A stretch of 64,000 nt of DNA. It comes from Lucinisca nassula. Its lineage: Eukaryota > Mollusca > Bivalvia > Lucinida > Lucinidae. How positions within the stretch are numbered: position 1 is the first letter of the stretch; every line of letters starts with the position of its first letter. The notes under the pieces are model-generated. The model was not told the origin of the DNA. It made no database searches and saw only the letters and a list, made by a program, of their open reading frames with translations. The DNA is taken from contig OY757012.1 of the NCBI GenBank assembly GCA_963580285.1, positions 167,140,652 to 167,204,651 of the forward strand, in the 5' to 3' direction. Positions 7,705-63,993 of this stretch are shown here, one piece after another. The translations under genes and the position numbers were made by a program.

Positions 7705-9010
7705 GTTCGGGGGATATAGCGATCAGCCTGGCGTCCGTCCGTCTGTCCGTCCGTAGACGCAACCTTGTGATGGCCATAACTCCTATACCCTTTGGAATTC
7801 ATTGATGGTTCTTGTCACAATTGTTCACAAGGCTGAGACGGCGTGTCATGCGCAAGAACCAGAACTCTGGATGCCATACTTTTTGAGTTATCTCCCTTTT
7901 TAATAAAATAGAATGATTACTTTGTGGCCATAAGTCCAATATCTTTTGAGATATATTGATGACACCTGGCACAGTTGTTCACAAGGCTGCGACAGCGTGT
8001 CATGCACAAGAACCACAACTCTGGTTGCCATGGGTTTTTTGTTATCTCCCCTTCCAATAAAATAGAGTGACTACCTTGTGATGGCCATAACTCCAAAACC
8101 CTTTAGGATATATTAATGATACCTGGCACATTTGTTTACAAGGCCGAGACGGTGTGTCATGCATAAGAACCACAACTCTGGGTGCCATGGTTTTTGAGTT
8201 ATTTCCCCTTCCAATAATATAGAATCACTACCTTGTGATGGCCACATCTCCAACACTTTTTGAGATATGTTGATGGTACTTGGTACAGTTATACATGAGG
8301 TTAAGCAGGTGTGTCACGTGCCAGAACCACAACTCTGGGTGCCCTGGATTTTTAATTATCTCCCCTGACAATATAACCTTGAGATGGCCATAACTCCAAT
8401 ACCCTTTGAGATATATTGATGGTACTTGGCACACTTGTATGCAAGGTTGAGACGGCGTTTCATGCCTAAGAACCACAACTCTGGCTGCTATGATATTTGA
8501 GTTATCTCCCCTTCCAATATACCAGTATGATTACCTTGTGATCACCGTACCTCCAATACCACTTGACATATATTGGTGGTACTTGATGCAGATGTACATG
8601 AGGTTAAGCAAGTGTGTCATGCTCAAGAATTACAACTCTGGCTTTTGAGTATTCTCCCCTGCCAATATAACCTTGTGATGACCATAGCTCCAACACACTT
8701 TGAGATATATTCAAGGAACTTGGCGCAATTGTATACAAGGTACAGAAGGGGTGTCATGTGCAAGAAATACAACTGTTGGTGCTGTGGTATTTGAGTTATC
8801 TACCTTTCCAATATAACAGTATGACCAGCTTCTGATCATCATATCTCAAATACCCTTTGAGATATATTGATGGTACTTTGTACAAAAATACATGAGCTTA
8901 AGCAGGCATGTCATGCGCAAGAACCACAATTCTGAGTGCCCTGGTTTTTTAGTTATCTCCCCTGACAGTATAATCTTGTGAATGCCATAACTGCAGTAAC
9001 TTTTGTGATA
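7685..9010 (+). repeat. ~155 bp tandem array, about 8.5 copies
   Basis: Units begin near CCTTGTGATGGCCATAACTC (7,762, 7,918, 8,075, 8,230, 8,388, 8,537, 8,677, 8,825, 8,978) and include GAGATATATTGATGGTACTT and GAGTTATCTCCCCTTCCAAT. The array is preceded by CCGTCCGTCTGTCC (7,727-7,745), a feature of many arrays here. Units are diverged, so this is an old array. Open frames inside it are incidental. Confidence 0.85.
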
Positions 9011-9313
9011 TATTGCTGGTTTAATTCTGGTGCACTTTCTATTGGTGAACAATCTTCTAAAGGCCATATTGGCTTTTGGTCGGGGGTGGGGGGGGGGGGG
9101 ATTTGCCATCTCTTCGATGGCTATTTTTTCTTATTTTATTCAATAAAATGTGGAACTATTATAGTAAAAAAAATATTTGAACCAAGGAAAGGCTCTCTGA
9201 CTGTTCCTATCAGTTATCTTCTGAAGGCACTTATGTAAGTATAGGAAACATGAACTATCCAAACATTTCCTGAAATGGAAGTCGTTGAAATTCATAATCC
9301 CTATACCAGACAC

Positions 9314-10831: not shown

Positions 10832-13800
10832 GGCGATAGGAAGGTGCGGTAAACGGCGTTCTTCATCATTTTTATAGCGACTAAGTATAGAGAGAAAAAA
10901 TCCGAAATTCGGAGACAAAAATTTTTCTCGGTCTTCCCAGCAGAAGAAAAAAAATGATGTTTTTCTCAATATCTCAGCTAATAAATGCGATAGGAAGGCG
11001 CGGTAAACGGCGTTCTTCATCATTTTTATAGCGACTAAGTATAGAGAGAAAAAATCCGAAATTCGGAGACAAAAAATTTTCTCGGTCTTCCCAGCAGAAG
11101 AAAAAAATGATGTTTTTCTCAATATCTCAGATAATAAATGCGATAGGAAGGCGCGGTAAACGGCGTTCTTCATTATTTTTATAGCGACTAAGTATAGAGA
11201 GAAAAAATCCGAAATTCGGAGACAAAAATTTTTCTCGGTCTTCCCAGCAGAAGAAAAAAATGATGTTTTTCTCAATATCTCAGCTAATAAATGCGATAGG
11301 AAGGTGCGGTAAACGGCATCTTCATCATTTTTATAGCGACTAAGTATAGAGAGAAAAAATCCGAAATTCTGAGACAAAAAATTTTCTCTATCTTCCCAGC
11401 AGAATACAAAAATGATGTTTTTCTCAATATCTCAGCTAATAAATGTGATAGGAAGGCGCGGTAAACGGCGTTCTTCATCATTTTTATAGCGACTAAGTAT
11501 AGAGAGAGAAAATCCGAAATTCGGAGACAAAAATTTTTCTCTATCTTCCCAGCAGAAGAAAAAAATGATGTTTTTCTCAATATCTCAGCTAATAAATGCG
11601 ATAGGAAGGCGCGGTAAACGGCGTTCTTCATCATTTTTATAGCGACTAAGTACAGAGAGAAAAAATCCGAAATTCCGAGACAAAAATTTTTCTCGGTCTT
11701 CCCAGCAGAAGAAAAAAATGATGTTTTTCTCAATATCTCAGCTAATAAATGCGATAGGAAGGTGCGGTAAACGGCGTTCTTCATCATTTTTATAGCGACT
11801 AAGTATAGAGAGAAAAAATCCGAAATTCGGAAACAAAATTTTTTCTCTATCTTCCCAGCAGAATACAAAAATGATGTTTTTCTCAATATCTCAGCTAATA
11901 AATGCGATAGGAAGGCGCGGTAAACGGCGTTCTTCATCATTTTTATAGCGACTAAGTATAGAGAGAAAAAATCCGAAATTCGGAGACAAAAATTTTTCTC
12001 TATCTTCCCAGCAGAATACAAAAATGATGTTTCTCTCAATATCTCAGCTAATAAATGCGATAGGAAGGCGCGGTAAACGGCGTTCTTCATCATTTTTATA
12101 GCGACTAAGTATAGAGAGAAAAAATCCGAAATTCCGTGACAAAAGTTTTTCTCTATCTTCCCAGCAGAAGAAAAAAATGATGTTTTTCTCAATATCTCAG
12201 CTAATAAATGCGATAGGAAGGCGCGGTAAACGGCGTTCTTCATCATTTTTATAGCGACTAAGTATAGAGAGAAAAATTCCGAAATTCCGAGACAAAATTT
12301 TTTCTCGGTCTTCCCAGCAGAAGAAAAAAATGATGTTTTTCTCAATATCTCAGCTAATAAATGCGATAGGAAGGCGCGGTAAACGGCGTTCTTCATCATT
12401 TTATAGCGACTAAGTATAGAGAGAAAAAATCCGAAATTCGGAGACAAAAATTTTTCTCGGTCTTCCCTGCAGGAGAAAAAAAATGATGTTTTTCTCAATA
12501 TCTCAGCTTATAAATGCGATAGGAAGGCGCGGTAAACGGCGTTCTTCATCATTTTTATAGCGACTTAGTATAGAGAGAAAAAATCCGAAATTCGGAGACA
12601 AAAATTTTTCTCTATCTTCCCAGCAGAATACAAAAATGATGTTTTTCTCAATATCTCAGCTAATAAATGCGATAGGAAGGCGCGGTAAACGGCGTTCTTC
12701 ATCATTTTTATAGCGACTAAGTATAGAGAGAAAAAATCCGAAATTCGGAGACAAAAATTTTTCTCTATCTTCCCAGCAGAATACAAAAATGATGTTTTTC
12801 TCAATATCTCAGCTAATAAATGCGATAGGAAGGCGCGGTAAACGGCGTTCTTCATCATTTTTATAGCGACTAAGTATAGAGAGAAAAAATCCGAAATTCG
12901 GAGACAAAAATTTTTCTCTATCTTCCCAGTAGAATACAAAAATGATGTTTTTCTCAATATCTCAGCTAATAAATGCGATAGGAAGGCGTGGTAAACGGCG
13001 TTCTTCATCATTTTTATAGCGACTAAGTATAGAGAGAAAAAATCCGAAATTCGGAGACAAAAATTTTTCTCTATCTTCCCAGCAGAATACAAAAATGATG
13101 TTTTTCTCAATATCTCAGCTAATAAATGCGATAGGAAGGCGCGGTAAACGGCGTTCTTCATCATTTTTATAGCGACTAAGTATAGAGAGAAAAAATCCGA
13201 AATTCGGAGACAAAAAATTTTCTCTATCTTCCCAGCAGAATACAAAAATGATGTTTTTCTCGATATCTCAGCTAATAAATGCGATAGGAAGGCGCGGTAA
13301 ACGGCGTTCTTCATCATTTTTATAGCGACTAAGTATAGAGAGAAAAAATCCGAAATTCGGAAACAAAATTTTTTCTCTATCTTCCCAGCAGAATACAAAA
13401 ATGATGTTTTTCTCAATATCTCAGCTAATAAATGCGATAGGAAGGCGCGGTAAACGGCGTTCTTCATCATTTTTATAGCGACTAAGTATAGAGAGAAAAA
13501 ATCCGAAATTCGGAGACAAAAATTTTTCTCTATCTTCCCAGTTGAATACAAAAATGATGTTTTTTCTCAATATCTCAGCTAATAAATGCGATAGGAAGGC
13601 GCGGTAAACGGCGTTCTTCATCATTTTTATAGCGACTAAGTATAGAGAGAAAAAATCCGAAATTCCGTGACAAAATTTTTTCGCTATCTTCCCAGCAGAA
13701 GAAAAAAATGTTTTTCTCAATATCTCAGCTAATAAATGCGATAGGAAGGCGCGGTAAACGGCGTTCTTCATCATTTTTATAGCGACTAAGTATAGAGAGA

Positions 13801-16800
13801 AAAATTCCGAAATTCCGAGACAAAATTTTTTCTCGGTCTTCCCAGCAGAAGAAAAAAATGATGTTTTTCTCAATATCTCAGCTAATAAATGCGATAGGAA
13901 GGCGCGGTAAACGGCGTTCTTCATCATTTTATAGCGACTAAGTATAGAGAGAAAAAATCCGAAATTCGGAGACAAAAATTTTTCTCTATCTTCCCAGCAG
14001 GAGAAAAAAAATTATGTTTTTCTCAATATCTCAGCTTATAAATGCGATAGGAAGGCGCGGTAAACGGCGTTCTTCATCATTTTTATAGCGACTAAGTATA
14101 GAGAGAAAAAATCCGAAATTCGGAGACAAAAATTTTACTCTATCTTCCCAGCAGAATACAAAAATGATGTTTTTCTCAATATCTCAGCTAATAAATGCGA
14201 TAGGAAGGCGCGGTAAACGGCGTTCTTCATCATTTTTATAGCGACTAAGTATAGAGAGAAAAAATCCGAAATTCGGAGACAAAAATTTTTCTCTATCTTC
14301 CCAGTAGAATACAAAAATGATGTTTTTCTCAATATCTCAGCTAATAAATGCGATAGGAAGGCGTGGTAAACGGCGTTCTTCATCATTTTTATAGCGACTT
14401 AGTATAGAGAGAAAAAATCCGACATTCGGAGACAAAAATTTTTCTCTATCTTCCCAGCAGAATACAAAAATGATGTTTTTCTCAATATCTCAGCTAATAA
14501 ATGCGATAGGAAGGCGCGGTAAACGGCGTTCTTCATCATTTTTATAGCGACTAAGTATAGAGAGAAAAAATCCGAAATTCGGAGACAAAAAATTTTCTCT
14601 ATCTTCCCAGCAGAATACAAAAATGATGTTTTTCTCGATATCTCAGCTAATAAATGCGATAGGAAGGCGCGGTAAACGGCGTTCTTCATCATTTTTATAG
14701 CGACTAAGTATAGAGAGAAAAAATCCGAAATTCGGAGACAAAAATTTTTCTCTATCTTCCCAGCAGAAGAAAAAAAATGATGTTTTTCTCAATATCTCAG
14801 CTAATAAATGCGATAGGAAGGCGCGGTAATCGGTGTTCTTCATCATTTTTATAGCGACTAAGTACAGAGAGAAAAATTCCGAAATTCCGAGACAAAAATT
14901 TTTCTCGGTCTTCCCAGCAGAAGAACAAAATTATGTTTTTCTCAATATCTCAGCTAATAAATGCTATAGGAAGGCGCGGTAAACGGCGTTCTTCATCATT
15001 TTATAGCGACTAAGTATAGAGAGAAAAAATCCGAAATTCGGAGACAAAAATTTTTCTCGGTCTTCCCAGCAGGAGAAAAAAAATGATGTTTTTCTCAATA
15101 TCTCAGCTTATAAATGCGATAGGAAGGTGCGGTAAACGGCGTTCTTCATCATTTTTATAGCGACTAAGTATAGAGAGAAAAAATCCGAAATTCGGAGACA
15201 AAAATTTTTCTCTATCTTCCCAGCAGAATACAAAAATGATGTTTTTCTCAATATCTCAGCTAATAAATGCGATAGGAAGGCGTGGTAAACGGCGTTCTTC
15301 ATCATTTTTATAGCGACTAAGTATAGAGAGAAAAAATCCGAAATTCGGAGACAAAAAATTTTCTCTATCTTCCCAGCAGAATACAAAAATGATGTTTTTC
15401 TCGATATCTCAGCTAATAAATGCGATAGGAAGGCGCGGTAAACGGCGTTCTTCATCATTTTTATAGCGACTAAGTATAGAGAGAAAAAATCCGAAATTCG
15501 GAGACAAAAATTTTTCTCTATCTTCCCAGCAGAAGAAAAAAAATGATGTTTTTCTCAATATCTCAGCTAATAAATGCGATAGGAAGGCGCGGTAAACGGT
15601 GTTCTTCATCATTTTTATAGCGACTAAGTACAGAGAGAAAAAATCCGAAATTCGGAGACAAAAATTTTTCTCGGTCTTCCCAGCAGAAGAAAAAAATGAT
15701 GTTTTTCTCAATATCTCAGCTAATAAATGCGATAGGAAGGTGCGGTAAACGGCGTTCTTCATCATTTTTATAGCGACTAATTATAGAGAGAAAAAATCCG
15801 AAATTCGGAGACAAAAATTTTTCTCTATCTTCCCAGCAGAATACAAAAATGATGTTTTTCTCAATATCTCAGCTAATAAATGCGATAGGAAGGCGTGGTA
15901 AACGGCGTTCTTCATCATTTTTATAGCGACTAAGTATAGAGAGAAAAAATCCGAAATTCGGAGACAAAAATTTTTCTCTATCTTCCCAGTAGAATACAAA
16001 AATGATGTTTTTCTCAATATCTCAGCTAATAAATGCGATAGGAAGGCGTGGTAAACGGCGTTCTTCATCATTTTTATAGCGACTAAGTATAGAGAGAAAA
16101 AATCCGAAATTCGGAGACAAAAATTTTTCTCTATCTTCCCAGCAGAATACAAAAATGATGTTTTTCTCAATATCTCAGCTAATAAATGCGATAGGAAGGC
16201 GCGGTAAACGGCGTTCTTCATCATTTTTATAGCGACTAAGTATAGAGAGAAAAAATCCGAAATTCGGAGACAAAAATTTTTCTCTATCTTCCCAGCAGAA
16301 GAAAAAAATGATGTTTTTCTCAATATCTCAGCTAATAAATGCGATAGGAAGGCGCGGTAAACGGCGTTCTTCATTATTTTTATAGCGACTAAGTATAGAG
16401 AGAAAAAATCCGAAATTCCGAGACAAAAATTTTTCTCGGTCTTCCCAGCAGAAGAAAAAAAATGATGTTTTTCTCAATATCTCAGCTAATAAATGCGATA
16501 GGAAGGTGCGGAAAACGGCGTTCTTCATCATTTTTATAGCGACTAAGTATAGAGAGAAAAAATCCGAAATTCGGAGACAAAAATTTTTCTCTATCTTCCC
16601 AGCAGAATACAAAAATGATGTTTTTCTCAATATCTCAGCTAATAAATGCGATAGGAAGGCGCGGTAAACGGTGTTCTTCATCATTTTTATAGCGACTAAG
16701 TATAGAGAGAAAAAATCCGAAATTCGGAGACAAAAATTTTTCTCTATCTTCCCAGCAGAATACAAAAATGATGTTTTTCTCAATATCTCAGCTAATAAAT

Positions 16801-19800
16801 GCGATAGGAAGGCGCGGTAAACGGCGTTCTTCATCATTTTTATAGCGACTAAGTATAGAGAGAAAAAATCCGAAATTCGGAGACAAAAAATTTTCTCTAT
16901 CTTCCCAGCAGAATACAAAAATGATGTTTTTCTCGATATCTCAGCTAATAAATGCGATAGGAAGGCGCGGTAAACGGCGTTCTTCATCATTTTTATAGCG
17001 ACTAAGTATAGAGAGAAAAAATCCGAAATTCGGAGACAAAAATTTTTCTCTATCTTCCCAGCAGAAGAAAAAAAATGATGTTTTTCTCAATATCTCAGCT
17101 AATAAATGCGATAGGAAGGCGCGGTAAACGGTGTTCTTCATCATTTTTATAGCGACTAAGTACAGAGAGAAAAATTCCGAAATTCCGAGACAAAAATTTT
17201 TCTCGGTCTTCCCAGCAGAAGAAAAAAATTATGTTTTTCTCAATATCTCAGCTAATAAATGCTATAGGAAGGCGCGGTAAACGGCGTTCTTCATCATTTT
17301 ATAGCGACTAAGTATAGAGAGAAAAAATCCGAAATTCGGAGACAAAAATTTTTCTCGGTCTTCCCAGCAGGAGAAAAAAAATGATGTTTTTCTCAATATC
17401 TCAGCTTATAAATGCGATAGGAAGGTGCGGTAAACGGCGTTCTTCATCATTTTTATAGCGACTAAGTATAGAGAGAAAAAATCCGAAATTCGGAGACAAA
17501 AATTTTTCTCTATCTTCCCAGCAGAATACAAAAATGATGTTTTTCTCAATATCTCAGCTAATAAATGCGATAGGAAGGCGTGGTAAACGGCGTTCTTCAT
17601 CATTTGTATAGCGACTAAGTATAGAGAGAAAAAATCCGAAATTCGGAGACAAAAAATTTTCTCTATCTTCCCAGCAGAATACAAAAATGACGTTTTTCTC
17701 GATATCTCAGCTAATAAATGCGATAGGAAGGCGCGGTAAACGGCGTTCTTCATCATTTTTATAGCGACTAAGTATAGAGAGAAAAAATCCGAAATTCGGA
17801 GACAAAAATTTTTCTCTATCTTCCCAGCAGAAGAAAAAAAATGATGTTTTTCTCAATATCTCAGCTAATAAATGCGATAGGAAAGCGCGGTAAACGGTGT
17901 TCTTCATCATTTTTATAGCGACTAAGTACAGAGAGAAAAAATCCGAAATTCGGAGACAAAAATTTTTCTCGGTCTTCCCAGCAGAAGAAAAAAATGATGT
18001 TTTTCTCAATATCTCAGCTAATAAATGCGATAGGAAGGTGCGGTAAACGGCGTTCTTCATCATTTTTATAGCGACTAAGTATAGAGAGAAAAAATCCGAA
18101 ATTCGGAGACAAAAATTTTTCTCTATCTTCCCAGCAGAATACAAAAATGATGTTTTTCTCAATATCTCAGCTAATAAATGCGATAGGAAGGCGCGGTAAA
18201 CGGCGTTCTTCATCATTTTTATAGCGACTAAGTATAGAGAGAAAAAATCCGAAATTCGGAGACAAAAATTTTTCTCTATCTTCCCAGTAGAATACAAAAA
18301 TGATGTTTTTCTCAATATCTCAGCTAATAAATGCGATAGGAAGGCGTGGTAAACGGCGTTCTTCATCATTTTTATAGCGACTAAGTATAGAGAGAAAAAA
18401 TCCGAAATTCGGAGACAAAATTTTTCTCTATCTTCCCAGCAGAATACAAAAATGATGTTTTTCTCAATATCTCAGCTAATAAATGCGATAGGAAGGCGCG
18501 GTAAACGGCGTTCTTCATCATTTTTATAGCGACTAAGTATAGAGAGAAAAAATCCGAAATTCGGAGACAAAAATTTTTCTCTATCTACCCAGCAGAAGAA
18601 AAAAATGATGTTTTTCTCAATATCTCAGCTAATAAATGCGATAGGAAGGCGCGGTAAACGGCGTTCTTCATTATTTTTATAGCGACTAAGTATAGAGAGA
18701 AAAAATCCGAAATTCCGAGACAAAAATTTTTCTCGGTCTTCCCAGCAGAAGAAAAAAAATGATGTTTTTCTCAATATCTCAGCTAATAAATGCGATAGGA
18801 AGGTGCGGAAAACGGCGTTCTTCATCATTTTTATAGCGACTAAGTATAGAGAGAAAAAATCCGAAATTCGGAGACAAAAATTTTTCTCTATCTTCCCAGC
18901 AGAATACAAAAATGATGTTTTTCTCAATATCTCAGCTAATAAATGCGATAGGAAGGCGCGGTAAACGGCGTTCTTCATCATTTTTATAGCGACTAAGTAT
19001 AGAGAGAAAAAATCCGAAATTCGGAGACAAAAATTTTTCTCTATCTTCCCAGCAGAATACAAAAATGATGTTTTTCTCAATATCTCAGCTAATAAATGCG
19101 ATAGGAAGGCGCGGTAAACGGCGTTCTTCATCATTTTTATAGCGACTAAGTATAGAGAGAAAAAATCCGAAATTCGGAGACAAAAAATTTTCTCTATCTT
19201 CCCAGCAGAATACAAAAATGATGTTTTTCTCGATATCTCAGCTAATAAATGCGATAGGAAGGCGCGGTAAACGGCGTTCTTCATCATTTTTATAGCGACT
19301 AAGTATAGAGAGAAAAAATCCGAAATTCGGAGACAAAAATTTTTCTCTATCTTCCCAGCAGAAGAAAAAAAATGATGTTTTTCTCAATATCTCAGCTAAT
19401 AAATGCGATAGGAAGGCGCGGTAAACGGTGTTCTTCATCATTTTTATAGCGACTAAGTACAGAGAGAAAAATTCCGAAATTCCGAGACAAAAATTTTTCT
19501 CTATCTTCCAAGCAGAAGAAAAAAATTATGTTTTTCTCAATATCTCAGCTTATAAATGCTATAGGAAGATGCGGTAAATGGCGTTCTTCATCATTTTATA
19601 GCGACTAAGTATAGAGAGAAAAAATCCGAAATTCGGAGACAAAAATTTTTCTCGGTCTTCCCAGCAGGAGAAAAAAAATGATGTTTTTCTCAATATCTCA
19701 GCTTATAAATGCGATAGGAAGGTGCGGTAAACGGCGTTCTTCATCATTTTTATAGCGACTAAGTATAGAGAGAAAAAATCCGAAATTCGGAGACAAAAAT

Positions 19801-22800
19801 TTTTCTCTATCTTCCCAGCAGAATACAAAAATGATGTTTTTCTCAATATCTCAGCTAATAAATGCGATAGGAAGGCGTGGTAAACGGCGTTCTTCATCAT
19901 TTTTATAGCGACTAAGTATAGAGAGAAAAAATCCGAAATTCGGAGACAAAAAAATTTCTCTATCTTCCCAGCAGAATACAAAAATGATGTTTTTCTCGAT
20001 ATCTCAGCTAATAAATGCGATAGGAAGGCGCAGTAAACGGCGTTCTTCATCATTTTTATAGCGACTAAGTATAGAGAGAAAAAATCCGAAATTCGGAGAC
20101 AAAAATTTTTCTCTATCTTCCCAGCAGAAGAAAAAAATGATGTTTTTCTCAATATCTCAGCTAATAAATGCGATAGGAAGGCGCGGTAAACGGTGTTCTT
20201 CATCATTTTTATAGCGACTAAGTACAGAGAGAAAAAATCCGAAATTCGGAGACAAAAATTTTTCTCGGTCTTCCCAGCAGAAGAAAAAAATGATGTTTTT
20301 CTCAATATCTCAGCTAATAAATGCGATAGGAAGGTGCGGTAAACGACGTTCTTCATCATTTTTATAGCGACTAAGTATAGAGAGAAAAAATCCGAAATTC
20401 GGAAACAAAATTTTTTCTCTATCTTCCCAGCAGAATACAAAAATGATGTTTTTCTCAATATCTCAGCTAATAAATGCGATAGGAAGGCGCGGTAAACGGC
20501 GTTCTTCATCATTTTTATAGCGACTAAGTATAGAGAGAAAAAATCCGAAATTCGGAGACAAAAATTTTTCTCTATCTTCCCAGTAGAATACAAAAATGAT
20601 GTTTTTCTCAATATCTCAGCTAATAAATGCGATAGGAAGGCGTGGTAAACGGCGTTCTTCATCATTTTTATAGCGACTAAGTATAGAGAGAAAAAATCCG
20701 AAATTCGGAGACAAAAATTTTTCTCTATCTTCCCAGCAGAATACAAAAATGATGTTTTTCTCAATATCTCAGCTAATAAATGCGATAGGAAGGCGCGGTA
20801 AACGGCGTTCTTCATCATTTTTATAGCGACTAAGTATAGAGAGAAAAAATCCGAAATTCGGGGACAAAAATTTTTCTCTATCTTCCCAGCAGAATACAAA
20901 AATGATGTTTTTCTCAATATCTCAGCTAATAAATGCGATAGGAAGGCGCGGTAAACGGCGTTCTTCATTATTTTTATAGCGACTAAGTATAGAGAGAAAA
21001 AATCCGAAATTCCGAGACAAAAATTTTTCTCGGTCTTCCCAGCAGAAGAAAAAAAATGATGTTTTTCTCAATATCTCAGCTAATAAATGCGATAGGAAGG
21101 TGCGGAAAACGGCGTTCTTCATCATTTTTATAGCGACTAAGTATAGAGAGAAAAAATCCGAAATTCGGAGACAAAAATTTTTCTCTATCTTCCCAGCAGA
21201 ATACAAAAATGATGTTTTTCTCAATATCTCAGCTAATAAATGCGATAGGAAGGCGCGGTAAACGGCGTTCTTCATCATTTTTATAGCGACTAAGTATAGA
21301 GAGAAAAAATCCGAAATTCGGAGACAAAAATTTTTCTCTATCTTCCCAGTAGAATACAAAAATGATGTTTTTCTCAATATCTCAGCTAATAAATGCGATA
21401 GGAAGGCGTGGTAAACGGCGTTCTTCATCATTTTTATAGCGACTAAGTATAGAGAGAAAAAATCCGAAATTCGGAGACAAAAATTTTTCTCTATCTTCCC
21501 AGCAGAATACAAAAATGATGTTTTTCTCAATATCTCAGCTAATAAATGCGATAGGAAGGCGCGGTAAACGGCGTTCTTCATCATTTTTATAGCGACTAAG
21601 TATAGAGAGAAAAAATCCGAAATTCGGAGACAAAAATTTTTCTCTATCTACCCAGCAGAAGAAAAAAATGATGTTTTTCTCAATATCTCAGCTAATAAAT
21701 GCGATAGGAAGGCGCGGTAAACGGCGTTCTTCATTATTTTTATAGCGACTAAGTATAGAGAGAAAAAATCCGAAATTCCGAGACAAAAATTTTTCTCGGT
21801 CTTCCCAGCAGAAGAAAAAAAATGATGTTTTTCTCAATATCTCAGCTAATAAATGCGATAGGAAGGTGCGGAAAACGGCGTTCTTCATCATTTTAATAGC
21901 GACTAAGTATAGAGAGAAAAAAATCCGAAATTCGGAGACAAAAATTTTTCTCTATCTTCCCAGCAGAATACAAAAATGATGTTTTTCTCAATATCTCAGC
22001 TAATAAATGCGATAGGAAGGCGCGGTAAACGGCGTTCTTCATCATTTTTATAGCGACTAAGTATAGAGAGAAAAAATCCGAAATTCGGAGACAAAAATTT
22101 TTCTCTATCTTCCCAGCAGAATACAAAAATGATGTTTTTCTCAATATCTCAGCTAATAAATGCGATAGGAAGGCGCGGTAAACGGCGTTCTTCATCATTT
22201 TTATAGCGACTAAGTATAGAGAGAAAAAATCCGAAATTCGGAGACAAAAAATTTTCTCTATCTTCCCAGCAGAATACAAAAATGATGTTTTTCTCGATAT
22301 CTCAGCTAATAAATGCGATAGGAAGGCGCGGTAAACGGCGTTCTTCATCATTTTTATAGCGACTAAGTATAGAGAGAAAAAATCCGAAATTCGGAGACAA
22401 AAATTTTTCTCTATCTTCCCAGCAGAAGAAAAAAAATGATGTTTTTCTCAATATCTCAGCTAATAAATGCGATAGGAAGGCGCGGTAAACGGTGTTCTTC
22501 ATCATTTTTATAGCGACTAAGTACAGAGAGAAAAATTCCGAAATTCCGAGACAAAAATTTTTCTCTATCTTCCCAGCAGAAGAAAAAAATTATGTTTTTC
22601 TCAATATCTCAGCTTATAAATGCTATAGGAAGATGCGGTAAACGGCGTTCTTCATCATTTTATAGCGACTAAGTATAGAGAGAAAAAATCCGAAATTCGG
22701 AGACAAAAATTTTTCTCGGTCTTCCCAGCAGGAGAAAAAAAATGATGTTTTTCTCAATATCTCAGCTTATAAATGCGATAGGAAGGTGCGGTAAACGGCG

Positions 22801-24699
22801 TTCTTCATCATTTTTATAGCGACTAAGTATAGAGAGAAAAAATCCGAAATTCGGAGACAAAAATTTTTCTCTATCTTCCCAGCAGAATACAAAAATGATG
22901 TTTTTCTCAATATCTCAGCTAATAAATGCGATAGGAAGGCGTGGTAAACGGCGTTCTTCATCATTTTTATAGCGACTAAGTATAGAGAGAAAAAATCCGA
23001 AATTCGGAGACAAAAAATTTTCTCTATCTTCCCAGCAGAATACAAAAATGATGTTTTTCTCGATATCTCAGCTAATAAATGCGATAGGAAGGCGCAGTAA
23101 ACGGCGTTCTTCATCATTTTTATAGCGACTAAGTATAGAGAGAAAAAATCCGAAATTCGGAGACAAAAATTTTTCTCTATCTTCCCAGCAGAAGAAAAAA
23201 ATGATGTTTTTCTCAATATCTCAGCTAATAAATGCGATAGGAAGGCGCGGTAAACGGTGTTCTTCATCATTTTTATAGCGACTAAGTACAGAGAGAAAAA
23301 ATCCGAAATTCGGAGACAAAAATTTTTCTCGGTCTTCCCAGCAGAAGAAAAAAATGATGTTTTTCTCAATATCTCAGCTAATAAATGCGATAGGAAGGTG
23401 CGGTAAACGACGTTCTTCATCATTTTTATAGCGACTAAGTATAGAGAGAAAAAATCCGAAATTCGGAAACAAAATTTTTTCTCTATCTTCCCAGCAGAAT
23501 ACAAAAATGATGTTTTTCTCAATATCTCAGCTAATAAATGCGATAGGAAGGCGCGGTAAACGGCGTTCTTCATCATTTTTATAGCGACTAAGTATAGAGA
23601 GAAAAAATCCGAAATTCGGAGACAAAAATTTTTCTCTATCTTCCCAGTAGAATACAAAAATGATGTTTTTCTCAATATCTCAGCTAATAAATGCGATAGG
23701 AAGGCGTGGTAAACGGCGTTCTTCATCATTTTTATAGCGACTAAGTATAGAGAGAAAAAATCCGAAATTCGGAGACAAAAATTTTTCTCTATCTTCCCAG
23801 CAGAATACAAAAATGATGTTTTTCTCAATATCTCAGCTAATAAATGCGATAGGAAGGCGCGGTAAACGGCGTTCTTCATCATTTTTATAGCGACTAAGTA
23901 TAGAGAGAAAAAATCCGAAATTCGGAGACAAAAATTTTTCTCTATCTTCCCAGCAGAATACAAAAATGATGTTTTTCTCAATATCTCAGCTAATAAATGC
24001 GATAGGAAGGCGCGGTAAACGGCGTTCTTCATTATTTTTATAGCGACTAAGTATAGAGAGAAAAAATCCGAAATTCCGAGACAAAAATTTTTCTCGGTCT
24101 TCCCAGCAGAAGAAAAAAAATGATGTTTTTCTCAATATCTCAGCTAATAAATGCGATAGGAAGGTGCGGAAAACGGCGTTCTTCATCATTTTTATAGCGA
24201 CTAAGTATAGAGAGAAAAAATCCGAAATTCGGAGACAAAAATTTTTCTCTATCTTCCCAGCAGAATACAAAAATGATGTTTTTCTCAATATCTCAGCTAA
24301 TAAATGCGATAGGAAGGCGCGGTAAACGGCGTTCTTCATCATTTTTATAGCGACTAAGTATAGAGAGAAAAAATCCGAAATTCGGAGACAAAAATTTTTC
24401 TCTATCTTCCCAGCAGAATACAAAATGATGTTTTTCTCAATATCTCAGCTAATAAATGCGATAGGAAGGCGCGGTAAACGGCGTTCTTCATCATTTTTAT
24501 AGCGACTAAGTATAGAGAGAAAAAATCCGAAATTCGGAGACAAAAATGTTTCTCTATCTTCCCAGCAGAATACAAAAATGATGTTTTTCTCAATATCTCA
24601 GCTAATAAATGCGATAGGAAGGCGCAGTAAACGGCGTTCTTCATCATTTTTATAGCGACTAAGTATAGAGAGAAAAAATCCGAAATTCAGAGACAAAAA
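10832..24699 (+). repeat. ~153 bp satellite array, about 90 monomers with higher-order structure
   Basis: Monomer: GCGATAGGAAGG-C-GGTAAAC, GGCGTTCTTCATCATTTTTA, TAGCGACTAAGTATAGAGAG, TCCGAAATTCGGAGAC, CTTCCCAGCAG, TGATGTTTTTCTC, ATATCTCAGCTAATAAATG. Two main subtypes differ after CCCAGCAGAA (TACAAAAATG versus GAAAAAAATG). A rare AGTACAGAGAG variant recurs at 14,861, 17,159, 19,456 and 22,520, giving higher-order periods of 2,298, 2,297 and 3,064 bp (15, 15 and 20 monomers). Because the unit is usually 51 codons, the minus strand stays open for up to 421 codons (repeat MMKNAVYRAFLSHLLAEILR...), broken only by 1 bp homopolymer changes. No signal, domain or gene context supports a protein. Confidence 0.97.
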
Positions 24700-27339: not shown

Positions 27340-27723
27340 CATTCTGTAAAAGTAGAGAAGTAAGCATTTTAGGTATTCCCCGAAGACACTGGTTAATTGC
27401 ACCACCAAGTTCATATAAACGACGATCAGAAAAAGGTTTTCTTTTGTAAAGGAAAAAACTCCGAAACAGGGAAAAGTCGCAGAGACTAAGGTCTTATATT
27501 TGTTTGGTGAATAAGGTTGATGAGAGAGAGGAACCACATTTTTCTCTTTCAAGAAGTCTTCCAAAGGATAACCCTTTCTAGAACATATTTAACGTCACTA
27601 CAGCTGATATCTGGGAATGCATGGCGGCCGTAAAACGTCTCCCTGCCCTACACCATAGTGTAGTTTATATGTTCTTGTCCTTTGCGATCATTGATTCCGT
27701 TGTGGAATTTTGAAAACTTTTGA

Positions 27724-27769
27724 GGGTCACTGATGAGGCCTGATTGACCGAAACTAGCTAGTCTGGTCC
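27724..27769 (+). ncRNA. Type I hammerhead ribozyme, core intact
   Basis: Stem I GGGTCA (27,724-27,729) pairs with TGGTCC (27,764-27,769) with two G-U wobbles. Core CTGATGA is at 27,730-27,736, stem II GGCC/GACC carries one C-A mismatch, GAAA is at 27,750-27,753, stem III is CTAGCTAG, and the cleavage site is after GTC (27,763). All core residues are present. The stem II mismatch probably weakens activity. Confidence 0.85.
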
Positions 27770-27984
27770 AGAAAAATATGTACACTCCATATTTTCCAGT
27801 TCTGTGGTGTATTCTTTGCTTCCAAAGGATAACCCTTTCTAGAACATATTTAACGTCACTACAGCTGGTGTCTGGGAATGTGTGGCGGGCGTAAAAAGTC
27901 TCCCTGTCCTACATCACAGTGTAGTTTATATTTTCTTGTCCTTTGGGATCATTGATTCCATTGTGGAATTTTGAACACTTTTGA

Positions 27985-28030
27985 GGGTCACTGTTCAGGC
28001 CTAATTGGCCGAAACTAGCTAGTCTGGTCC
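27985..28030 (+). ncRNA. Hammerhead ribozyme, core mutated
   Basis: Same layout as the copy 261 bp upstream: stem I GGGTCA/TGGTCC, perfect stem II GGCC-TAATT-GGCC, GAAA and GTC. The core reads CTGTTCA instead of CTGATGA, changing two invariant residues (A6 and G8). It should be inactive. Confidence 0.8.
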
Positions 28031-28279
28031 AGAAAAAATGTACACTCCATTATTTCCAGATCTGTGGTGTATTCCTTACTTCCAAAGGATAACCCTTTCT
28101 AGAATATATTGGACAAGAACACATTTGTCAGCAGGTGCGGTGTCACGGATTAGATACAGATCTCTTTAACGGGTTGCTGGTCTACGTTTTTCATAGTGTG
28201 CCTTTACGTTTGACAATTCATCAGGCTTATGAAATTTACCAGTGATTGCCTTGCCATTTGGTCCATAGCAATTGAAAAA

Positions 28280-46736: not shown

Positions 46737-47380
46737 TACGGAACCCGGGAAGGGACATGATTTTTTTTTATTTTATAAGTTGTGCGCACAAGATAATATC
46801 TTGTGCGGACAAGATATTATCTTGTTCGGACAACATATTATCTTGTCCGCACAAGATATTATCTTGTGCGGACAACATATTATCTTGTGCAGATATTATC
46901 TTGTCCGCACAAGATATTAAGTTGTGCGAACAAGATATTATCTTGTCCGCACAAGATAATATCTTGTCTGCACAAGATAGATCTTGTGCAGACAAGATAT
47001 TATCTTGTTCGCACAACTTATTATCTTGTGCGCACAAGATATTATCTTGTCCGCACAAGATAATATCTTGTGCGCACAAGATAATATGTTGTCCGAACAA
47101 GATAATATCTTGTCCGCACAAGATAATATCTTGTTCGCACAACTTCCCAAGATCTATGTTGTGCAAACAAGATATTATCTTGTGCGGACAAGATATTATC
47201 TTGTTCGCACAAGATAATATGTTGTGCAAACAAGATAATATCTTGTCCGCACAAGATAATATCTTGTCCACACAAGATAATATGTTGTCCGAACAAGATA
47301 ATATCTTGTCCGCTCAAGATATTATCTTGTTCGCACAACATAATAAAAATAAAAAATCATGTCCCTTCCCGGGTTCCGTA
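46737..47380. mobile_element. 644 bp palindromic-array transposon, 6 bp TSD
   Basis: Perfect terminal inverted repeats of 25 bp beginning TACGGAACCCGGGAAGGGAC, flanked by AAACAT on both sides (46,731-46,736; 47,381-47,386). The target, CCAAACATAGATTGTGG of a subfamily I MITE, is reconstituted exactly when the insert is removed. Between the TIRs lie ~26 units of ~21 bp, mostly CAAGATATTATCTTG separated by TCCGCA/TGCGGA/TTCGCA/TGCGCA, i.e. near-palindromes in tandem. Stop-free open frames in several frames of both strands (to 222 codons) follow from the 21 bp period and are not genes. Superfamily unknown. Confidence 0.88.
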
Positions 47381-61345: not shown

Positions 61346-61889
61346 CGGTGGCTCCTCTTATCCTATAGTATTCTAGTTTGTACATGAAGACTGTTACAGC
61401 CTCGTTTATGTAGATTTTAACATCGCTTCCGCATTTAGGTTGATAAGCCATCGCTTGTTCATGAACATTTTTGTCGCACCTGCTATTAGCATGGCGCGAT
61501 ATAGGCGTCCCGTTTTCCGTCCGTTCGTTCGTCCGTTAGTCCGTGAGTTTCTAGACGTCAACATTTGCGACCACCCTAGCGTTGACCCAAAGGTTCAAGT
61601 TTATTTCTTAAGAACTATAAGAGTTTCATTAATGATACTTGGTACAAACTTGTATCTGGGGATGGTAACTTAAAATATAAGCATCCGTATTTGACCTTGA
61701 CCTACATTTTATGGTTCACTGACTTTGTAAAATATTGCGACCACCCTAGCGTTCACCCTAATTGTCAAGTTTATTTCTCAAGAACTATAAGAGTTTCAAA
61801 GAGTTTCCCTGCCCTACATCATAGTGTAGATTATATTTTCTTGTCTTTTGGGATCATTGATTTCATTGTGGAATTTTGAAAACATCTGA

Positions 61890-61935
61890 GGGTCACTGAT
61901 GAGGCCTAATTGGCCGAAACTAGCTAGTCTGGCCC
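61890..61935 (+). ncRNA. Type I hammerhead ribozyme, intact
   Basis: Stem I GGGTCA/TGGCCC (one U-G wobble); core CTGATGA (61,896-61,902); stem II GGCC-TAATT-GGCC; GAAA (61,916-61,919); stem III CTAGCTAG, a 3 bp stem with 2-nt loop; cleavage after GTC at 61,929. All invariant core residues are present. Confidence 0.92.
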
Positions 61936-62150
61936 AGAAAACATGTACACTTCATATTTTTCAGTTCGGTGGTGAATTCCTTGCTTCCAAAGGACAACCC
62001 TTTTATAGAACATATTTAACTTCACTACAGCTGGTGTGTGGGAATGTGTGGCGGCGGTAAAACGTCTCCCTGCCCTACATCATAGTGTAGATTATATTTT
62101 CTTGTCCTTTGGGATCATTGATTTCATTGGTGAATTTTGAAAATATCTGA

Positions 62151-62196
62151 GGGTCACTGATGAGGCCTAATTGGCCGAAACTAGCTAGTCTGGCCC
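62151..62196 (+). ncRNA. Type I hammerhead ribozyme, intact
   Basis: Identical in all core and stem residues to the copy 261 bp upstream: CTGATGA at 62,157-62,163, GAAA at 62,177-62,180, cleavage after position 62,190. Confidence 0.92.
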
Positions 62197-62914
62197 AGAA
62201 AACATGTACACTTCATATTTTTCAGTTCGGTGGTGTATTCCTTGCTTCCAAAGGACAACCCTTTTATAGAACATCATTAATGGTATTTGGTACAAACTTG
62301 AATCTAGCGATGGCAACTTAAATGCAAGCATCCGCATTTGACCTTGACCTAAATTTCATGGTTCACTGACTTTGTAAAATATTTTGACCACCCTAGCGTT
62401 CGCCCTAATGGACAAGTTTATTTCTCAATTACTATAAGAGCTTCATTAATGATTCTTGGTACAAACTTGCATCTCGGGATGGCAACTTAAATGCAAGAAT
62501 CCATATTTGACCTTGATCTACATTTCATGGTTCACTGACTTTGTAAAATATTGCGACCAACCTAGCGTTCACCCAAAATGGCCAAGTTAATTTCTCAACA
62601 ACTATAAGATGCTTGGTACAAACTTGTATCTGGAGATGGAAACTTAAATGCAAGCATCCATATTTGACCTTGACCAACATTTTATGGTTCACTGACTTTG
62701 TAAAATATTGCAACCACCCTAGCGTTCACCCTAATGATTAAGTTCATTTCTCAAGAATTACTACAGCTTAATGAATTATACTTAGTACAAGCTTGCATTT
62801 AAGATAGCAACTTTTATGCAAGCATATATGTTTGACGGGCCTTGGCCTAGATGTCATGGTTCTCTGACTTTGCGCCCCCATAGGCGCGACATAGCCTCCG
62901 GCGGAATTATTGTT

Positions 62915-63993
62915 ATGCCCCGCCACCAGAAAGTAACGGGGTATTATGTTATACCCTCCGAAATTTTTAGTGTCCGTCCGTCTGTCTGTCCGCACCAACG
63001 AAACGACATTTAGGGGGCAAAAAATTTGGACAGTTTGACACTTTAGTATATATTCGTGAGTCCAAATGGACTTTATTCCATTATTTTGGTACTTAAGTGG
63101 CAAAAATTGTCTCTTAGGTGGCTTGCCGCTTAAGAGGATTTGCCGCTTAAGTAGTCAATATGCCGACGCCTAGCCACTTAAGTATCCATTCGTGAGAACG
63201 TCCGTCCGTCCGTCCCCCACACCATTCTTGTGTGCGCAACTCCTCCTACATTTTTTGGCCAATCCTTTTGAAACTTTACAGGTACTTTTAGGATGGTCTG
63301 GAGACATGCATATTGTTTTTTTTTCAGAATCCTTGAATTATTATTTAGCATTTTTAACTTAGACGTTTTTCGCGCCCTAATACAACAGAAACATAGGGAG
63401 TATCCATCCACATTGTGTGTGCAACTCCTCCTACAGTTTTAGTCCAATCCTTTAGAAACTTTATAAGTGATTTGAAGATGGTCTGAAGGTATGCATATTG
63501 TTGTTTTTTTTCAGAAGCCTGAGTTTATTTTTATCATTTTTTTGCATTTTCAACTTGGTCTTTTTTGACCCCTAATACTATAGAAATGTATAGGGAGTAT
63601 GTACCTTGTGTGCGCAATTCCTCCTACAGTTTTTGGCGAATCCTTTTGGAACTCTACACATGCTTTAAGCATGTTCTGAAGATATGCATATTTTTTCAGA
63701 GTCCTGAAATTATTTTTATCACATTTTTGCACTTTTAACTTAGACTTTTTTCGAGCCCTAATACTACAGAAATGTATACAGGTGTGTGCGCAACTCCTCC
63801 TTCAGTTTTAGGCCAGTACTTTTGAAACTTTTCAAGCCTTTGTATGATGGTCTGAAGATATGCATATTGTTATTTCCAGAAACATGAAATTCTTTTTTAT
63901 CACCTTTTTTGCATTTTTAACTTCGACTTTTTTCATGCCCAAATACTACAGAAATGTATACTTGTTTTTGATATAAGTGCAGTGGCGGGGCAT
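62915..63993. mobile_element. Composite repeat with ATGCCCCGCCAC ends and ~187 bp tandem array
   Basis: ATGCCCCGCCAC (62,915-62,926) and its inverse GTGGCGGGGCAT (63,982-63,993) bracket TGTCCGTCCGTCTGTCTGTC, a GTCCGTCCGTCCGTCCC tract (63,200), and four units starting TGTGTGCGCAACTCCTCCTA (63,230, 63,416, 63,608, 63,783). Each unit has CCAATCCTTTTGAAACTTT and GATGGTCTGAAGATATGCAT. It may extend past the window edge. No coding content. Confidence 0.75.

Follow-up and report, generated by a model that had tools for sequence, protein, structure and literature searches.

What kind of element brought two hammerhead ribozymes into the middle of a satellite, and how are its copies made? The question is raised by an insertion of 472 bp at positions 61803-62274 (plus strand; L121 in our samples) of the window, that is, the whole stretch of 64,000 nucleotides of the bivalve Lucinisca nassula that was analysed. 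The insertion is a retrozyme of 1.8 units of 261 bp, anchored at its 3' end and truncated at its 5' end. It interrupts a satellite of about 169 bp, of which the left part lies at 61569-61798 and the right part at 62275-62872 (both plus strand). One satellite monomer is split between 61739-61798 on the left of the element and 62275-62385 on the right, and the flanks, once joined, match the uninterrupted neighbouring monomers. The original prediction was of a clean insertion into an unrelated array of about 170 bp. The insertion itself is confirmed, and it is almost but not perfectly clean, with four extra nucleotides on the left side and a 2-bp overlap at the target.

Two type I hammerhead ribozymes are predicted within the element, at 61890-61935 and 62151-62196 (plus strand), with cuts expected after 61929 and 62190, respectively. 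The two 46-nt sites are identical (GGGTCA-CTGATGA-GGCC-TAATT-GGCC-GAAA-CTAGCTAG-TC-TGGCCC) and spaced by exactly 261. Helix I (GGGUCA/UGGCCC) has 6 bp, the core reads CUGAUGA, and the cut falls after GUC. Helix II (GGCC/GGCC) has 4 bp with the loop UAAUU and is followed by GAAA, and helix III (CU/AG) has 2 bp with the loop AGCU. The letters first noticed at this locus, namely CTGATGA, GAAA and GTC, stems I and II, and the 261-bp repeat, are thus present where they had been placed. Both hammerheads also proved intact as claimed, being matched by a three-helix descriptor and by a covariance model, R1, with 45.0 bits each (E 9.8e-12). The descriptor found these two sites only in the window, and matched anywhere in 3 of 200 dinucleotide shuffles of it. 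As read from its letters, the motif is a type I and not a type III hammerhead.

The Rfam models, which had been expected to hit at 61,890 and 62,151, gave 0 matches at their gathering cut-offs. No hammerhead family was present among the 63 whole-window Rfam matches at E<=10, and the best Rfam hammerhead scores on short stretches were 17.6-19.7 bits. This silence is uninformative, because viral hammerheads used as a control were missed at the same cut-offs. For the control, viral contigs were taken by a loose hammerhead pattern, giving at least 120 stretches. The descriptor recognized 55 three-helix hammerheads in the 120 stretches, including some that duplicate others, and Rfam at gathering returned 0 hammerhead matches in 13 viral loci with 18 descriptor-positive hammerheads. 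Model R1 was built from six phage-borne (viral) hammerheads. In a held-out control, it gave 30 matches of at least 25.9 bits in 19 viral loci outside the model, and in the window its next match, besides the copies at 27 kb described below, had 11.0 bits. The 13-nt helix II hairpin, the 8-nt helix III and the total of 46 nt are the same lengths as those of the viral hammerheads L001 and L007. Exact family patterns were found in 0 places in viral contigs and in prokaryote genomes, collections from which records of the window's own genome may be absent.

Cutting at both sites would free an RNA of 261 nt (61930-62190, plus strand; GC 0.41), which could be circularised. The G+C content of the unit is low (0.414). 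The longest ATG frame touching the element has 53 aa, in agreement with the earlier description of repeats without ORFs, and no ORF for a reverse transcriptase (RT) with GIY-YIG lies inside it. Pfam matched nothing at E 0.01 in ten ORFs of the window, and no tRNA was found in the 64 kb. The two units of the window element differ at 6 of 211 nt, so this copy is not fresh. None of the differences lies in the ribozymes; since 1.3 would be expected in a 46-nt ribozyme and the probability of none is 0.27, the lack of change there is compatible with chance. A second, older retrozyme insertion, absent from the original prediction, is located at 27558-28107 (plus strand). It has 2.1 units, which are 9.2% divergent, and it also ends at the 3' end common to the family. 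One of its hammerheads has an intact core and a C-A mismatch in helix II (27724-27769, plus strand; 33.5 bits), and the other has a broken core, CTGTTCA (27985-28030, plus strand; 29.4 bits).

The family is large. A search of the window's own assembly (2.93 Gb, 696 contigs) with the 261-bp unit gave at least 122 matches, with 40 of the 3,325 first-look candidates scored. The 21-mer that precedes the 3' end occurs, with up to two mismatches, at 19,516 + 19,465 = 38,981 places, compared with 2 + 2 = 4 places for the reversed 21-mer used as a control. The loci analysed were L121-L163, taken by unit similarity, L164-L198, taken by the 21-mer, and the 27-kb locus; these samples favour young, similar copies. 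Arrays with repeated flanks, with short flanks, or reaching the end of the locus were left out of the set used for 3' ends.

The copies end at the same base. Among 84 non-redundant arrays, 69 end exactly at unit position 261 (equal to 62274 in the window) and 71 at positions 255-261. This common 3' end (..CTTCCAAAGGACAACCCTTTTATAGAACAT; 62245-62274, plus strand), whose letters are given as ..GAACAUAUU / ..CCCTTTTATAGAACATATT, probably marks the start of reverse transcription. The ribozyme cut lies 84 nt upstream of this end, which is therefore not a ribozyme product. When arrays of at least 200 nt are considered, 39 of 42 in the whole-unit sample end at 259-261, as do 23 of 23 in the 21-mer sample, which was selected by that same 21-mer. 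Other 3' ends are seen in 13 of the 84 arrays, ten of which are shorter than 200 nt; the three longer ones are L135 (698), L156 (1192) and L158 (679). L163, with its 12 units, and L179, which is 55 nt long, both have the common end.

The 5' ends, by comparison, are scattered. In the 71 arrays they are spread over unit positions 2-255 (KS test against a uniform distribution, P 0.06), with 26 near the start site against 15.2 expected (P 0.0025, for an interval picked post hoc). A pile-up at the ribozyme cut was considered and rejected, with 3 of 71 ends at positions 175-179. Array lengths range from 55 to 3116 nt, 54 of the 71 arrays being longer than one unit, and no long, LTR-like repeats were seen flanking the arrays examined. 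The locus had been called a live, mobile retrozyme candidate. Mobility agrees with the dispersal of the family, its common 3' end and scattered 5' ends, and the identical or nearly identical units within insertions. The type I hammerhead and the tandem, ORF-free units of a dispersed multicopy family likewise bear out the retrozyme assignment. "Live" appears to hold for the family, judging by its sequences; the window copy, with its diverged units, is not fresh. As a separate observation, one three-unit retrozyme with identical flanks is present on four contigs (L122, L125, L126 and L129). It adjoins an open frame of 238-332 aa starting VMPRKKTWKK, which in the L122 copy has no Pfam match, and it seems to travel within another repeated element.

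The ribozyme was compared across 166 family units that cover it, arrays under 88% identity being left out. The core (13 letters tested) is intact in 129 of them, and the core with all 12 pairs in 101. The 46-nt ribozyme stretch ranks 7 of 261 windows along the unit in conservation, and the core letters alone are not conserved above random unit positions (P 0.24). Helix III is formed by CUAGCUAG, a self-complementary 8-mer that is unchanged in 151 of the 166 units, and an 8-bp helix common to two ribozymes is computed at -10.3 kcal/mol. When the hammerhead is forced, the fold has the 6-bp helix I, a GA bulge and then UCU/AGA. Compensatory change between the two window units was not above chance (P 0.25 and 0.73).

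The circular fold predicted for 61930-62190 is a long rod of -77.9 kcal/mol, with a z of -4.2 against 100 dinucleotide shuffles; the minus strand has a z of -0.3. The rod is not special here, since 38 of 300 segments taken from the window as background reach the same stability and the units of the 27-kb locus have z values of -1.0 and -1.3 (-1.0 for the cut-to-cut unit). For the circle 61811-62071, the free fold has -73.0 kcal/mol compared with -63.9 kcal/mol with the hammerhead forced, and the remaining rod is almost unaltered. Local folds of 100 nt give -21.2 and -25.4 when free, compared with -15.9 and -15.2 when forced. In these models, free folding would favour a pairing in which the ribozyme is blocked; for the circle, the preference is about 9 kcal/mol.

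We consider it likely that the family is a non-autonomous, non-LTR animal retrozyme whose circular RNA is reverse-transcribed from one fixed start. In the proposed mechanism, arrays would first be transcribed. The hammerheads would then release 261-nt monomers from the RNA, a reaction that probably works best between paired ribozymes, since the self-complementary helix III can be shared by two of them. A host ligase would close the monomers into circles, as published work on relatives suggests. A reverse transcriptase supplied in trans would use a nicked A+T-rich target reading (A)TT as its primer, would begin at a single position 84 nt past the cut, and would run round the circle for anything from part of a lap to many laps. 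This step is supported by the common 3' end, the scattered 5' ends and the multi-lap arrays of like units. Irregular joining of the second strand would finally leave an overlap of 1-8 bp or remove 1-25 bp, as seen at 18 empty sites.

The target sites bear on the priming step. The 3' flank of the 71 arrays starts with A in 64, T in 63 and T in 62 of them, followed weakly by T, A and A. Pairing of the start with a target end rich in TT would be expected to give such letters. Element and target are indistinguishable at the 3' boundary, since the unit itself continues ATTTAAC. A comparison of the flanks of 27 arrays revealed no target-site duplication: the mean best match was 2.15 compared with 1.93 in shuffled pairs, and 135 of 500 shuffles were as high as observed. 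Empty sites were sought for 71 arrays, a number that equals that of the 3'-end set by coincidence, as the filters differ. They were found for 18 of the 71. Nine show an overlap of 1-8 bp and the other nine a loss of 1-25 bp, judged for each site by the alignment that was commonest or best; several sites rest on one uninterrupted copy with 74-96% identity. The overlap exceeds 4 bp in two of the 18 (L168, 5; L169, 8). Separately, four arrays (L165, L166, L179 and L195) have the start of their 3' flank in common and lie in one repeat family (..GGCAGGC/TTAGATCC..), and this point of the repeat is possibly a target hot spot.

Penelope-like elements (PLEs) with hammerheads are reportedly the subject of works by Cervera & de la Pena (2014) and Lunse et al. 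(2017). GIY-YIG has at least 138 matches in the present genome (150 of 746 candidates scored), of which 21 are in frames of 763-820 aa. Three ORFs that were fetched (L199, L200 and L201) have 727, 777 and 751 aa, with the mechanical starts TTG, GTG and ATG. All three match GIY-YIG and RVT_1, the RVT_1 match of L201 being under its cut-off, and on these matches they are taken to be Penelope-like. No hammerhead was found in the three PLE loci with model R1, and no 3' end common to them and the unit. A TA repeat downstream of the L199 ORF is matched in L200, and positions 1-1701 of L200 form a large inverted repeat, 81% alike. As an identity for the insertion itself, an autonomous PLE was rejected, because RT and GIY-YIG are not encoded inside it and such ORFs lie elsewhere in the genome.

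A purified PLE has been described as cutting preferentially at ATT and starting reverse transcription within its RNA (PMC11167929). Together with the open ORFs of this genome, these properties make a PLE the most likely source of the enzyme, and this is the weakest step of the proposal. Against it, the boundary here shares ATT, whereas the start site of the published PLE is reported to have no homology to the cut DNA (PMC11167929). The lack of an R1 hammerhead and of the unit's 3' end in the three PLE loci, and the presence of LINE ORFs in the genome, also weigh against this step. The full reading, in which the approximately 39,000 units are a record of rolling-circle reverse transcription from one fixed base, probably by a PLE enzyme that starts at an (A)TT nick and stops nearly at random, is held with evenly divided confidence.

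The same retrozyme could instead be mobilised by an APE-type LINE through target-primed reverse transcription, as a SINE-like parasite, which we regard as possible and somewhat doubtful. Copies anchored at the 3' end and truncated at the 5' end are the pattern left by LINEs and SINEs, and the arrays fit it. A LINE-type endonuclease domain (Exo_endo_phos_2) adjoins L123, L136 and L149, RVT_1 adjoins L130, and an A+T-rich start is compatible with either enzyme. A regular long target-site duplication is, however, lacking, with values from -25 to +8 at the 18 empty sites, and the flanks of the 27 arrays match no better than shuffled pairs.

The sequences of the arrays bear on the nature of the template. 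Units of one array diverge by a mean of 2.57% (111 full units, 35 arrays) and units of different arrays by 5.95% (132 full units, 56 arrays), and 0 of 2000 relabelings of the units gave a within-array value as low as that observed. Array L123 has 801 nt and 3.07 laps with 0 differences among its units; L128, L131, L136, L138 and L146+ have 0-2 differences per unit. The plainest reading of these sequences is one circular template per insertion. Copies of many laps free of differences suggest very recent activity, and L123 with its identical laps argues that the family was active very recently. Other arrays are untidy. L127, L137 and L156 are internally diverse, with neighbours differing by a mean of 9-11, two unit types alternate in the middle of L162 (8 units), and the units of L163 recur at a distance of four. 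Copying one monomer circle yields neither such diversity nor the period-2 and period-4 patterns of the long arrays. Circles of more than one unit, switching of templates or unequal exchange after insertion could each account for these arrays. L123 (C13), beside its Exo_endo_phos_2 ORF, sits in an apparent LINE.

Instead of a circle, the template might have been a linear RNA transcribed from an existing array and containing several units, the laps then being copied units. The several unit types of L127 and L137 and the alternation in L162 would suit such a template, but the multi-lap arrays with 0-2 differences per unit would not, and the likeness within arrays is far above that of relabeled units. 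Unit lengths are also specific to an array, as in L162, where seven of the eight units have 262 or 263 and the first unit is truncated. On this evidence, a linear template is unlikely.

An ordinary satellite with a relic ribozyme, spread by unequal exchange or by extrachromosomal DNA circles, is very improbable. Tandem units and the higher-order pattern of the longest arrays are what it would produce, and hammerhead-bearing newt satellites have long been known, as noted in PMC7229834. Reinsertion of DNA circles, however, does not fix the 3' nucleotide while leaving the 5' end free, and single partial units from 55 nt up end here at the same base as the 12 units of L163. Chance likeness to a hammerhead within a tandem repeat can hardly explain the motif, for although the descriptor does match in a few shuffled windows and the Rfam scores stay under their cut-offs, both sites score 45 bits with the phage-hammerhead model, the next match has 11 bits, and the helices and loops are as long as those of L001 and L007.

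The retrozyme so favoured is of a kind already known (PMC7229834); its fixed start was found in no paper searched. According to the main text of Cervera & de la Pena (2020, PMC7229834), metazoan non-LTR retrozymes likewise have type I hammerheads, tandem units of about 170-400 nt, low G+C and no LTR. They also range from dimers to large multimers, with thousands of motifs per genome, where PLEs are present as well. Some mussel circles are also predicted to hide the ribozyme, as is the circle here, and mussel ribozymes are described as being without most of the usual loop-contact nucleotides (PMC7229834). The units of M. galloprovincialis have about 350-390 bp, compared with 261 here. Retrozyme target-site duplications are stated there to exceed 4 bp when present and not to be required (PMC7229834), whereas the values here are irregular (-25 to +8). 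The discussion of that paper envisages tandem cDNA made on a primed circle, with the primer and the enzyme left open. The terms "truncat", "TPRT" and "junction" are absent from its main text, in which a fixed start site was not found described. In the main texts of open-licence papers more widely, neither a fixed start site nor lap-identical arrays were found described for animal retrozymes.

Satellite hammerheads of newt and axolotl are similar in having a helix III of 1-2 bp, with a palindromic tetraloop in one family (PMC7229834). Salamander repeats are described there as cleaving better through paired ribozymes, which the self-complementary helix III of the present family resembles. Their units have 330-350 bp and are from vertebrates, compared with 261 here, and the two are likened by description only. 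PLEs with hammerheads, as described in the text of Frangieh et al. (2024, PMC11167929), share a defined internal RT start, a cut at ATT, a tandem arrangement and a hammerhead. They encode RT and GIY-YIG and have minimal hammerheads, unlike the element here with its longest ATG frame of 53 aa. The hammerhead of the published PLE is reported not to be needed for insertion in vitro (PMC11167929).

The SMalpha/W-elements of schistosomes are also short, repeated and noncoding, with working hammerheads and partial autosomal copies, and their SINE-like unit has 335 bp compared with 261 here (PMC8490949). The available text of that paper contains neither "retrozyme" nor "truncat". A tRNA sequence is noted for the schistosome repeats (PMC4918200), whereas the window here has no tRNA. 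Plant LTR retrozymes follow the same logic of a retroelement with circular RNA, but they are described with type III hammerheads, LTRs, PBS/PPT and a 4-bp target-site duplication (PMC4918200), compared with type I here. Their circles have 600-800 nt (PMC7229834), compared with the 261-nt unit. A plant-type LTR retrozyme was ruled out by the type I topology seen with the descriptor and R1.

The size of the family, its common 3' end and its lap-identical arrays make the question of mobilisation, as left open in the text of PMC7229834, directly testable: the start site and the target motif are both defined, and candidate enzymes are encoded in the same genome. If the reading is true, the start site of animal retrozymes would be known and their partner open to testing, and such an enzyme would be able to use a covalently closed circle as its template.

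A relative of the retrozyme with a unit of 200 bp is present at L144:132-531 (C17), in two copies with 98% matches. It keeps CTAGCTAGT and the TAATT letters, and its helices I and II are degenerate. The window also contains a satellite of 153 bp with about 90 copies and 96% matches, which extends over 13.9 kb (10833-24699), and further tandem repeats at 7761-9020 (unit of about 303 (157) bp), 46780-47345 (unit of 21 bp) and 63228-63961 (unit of about 185 bp).
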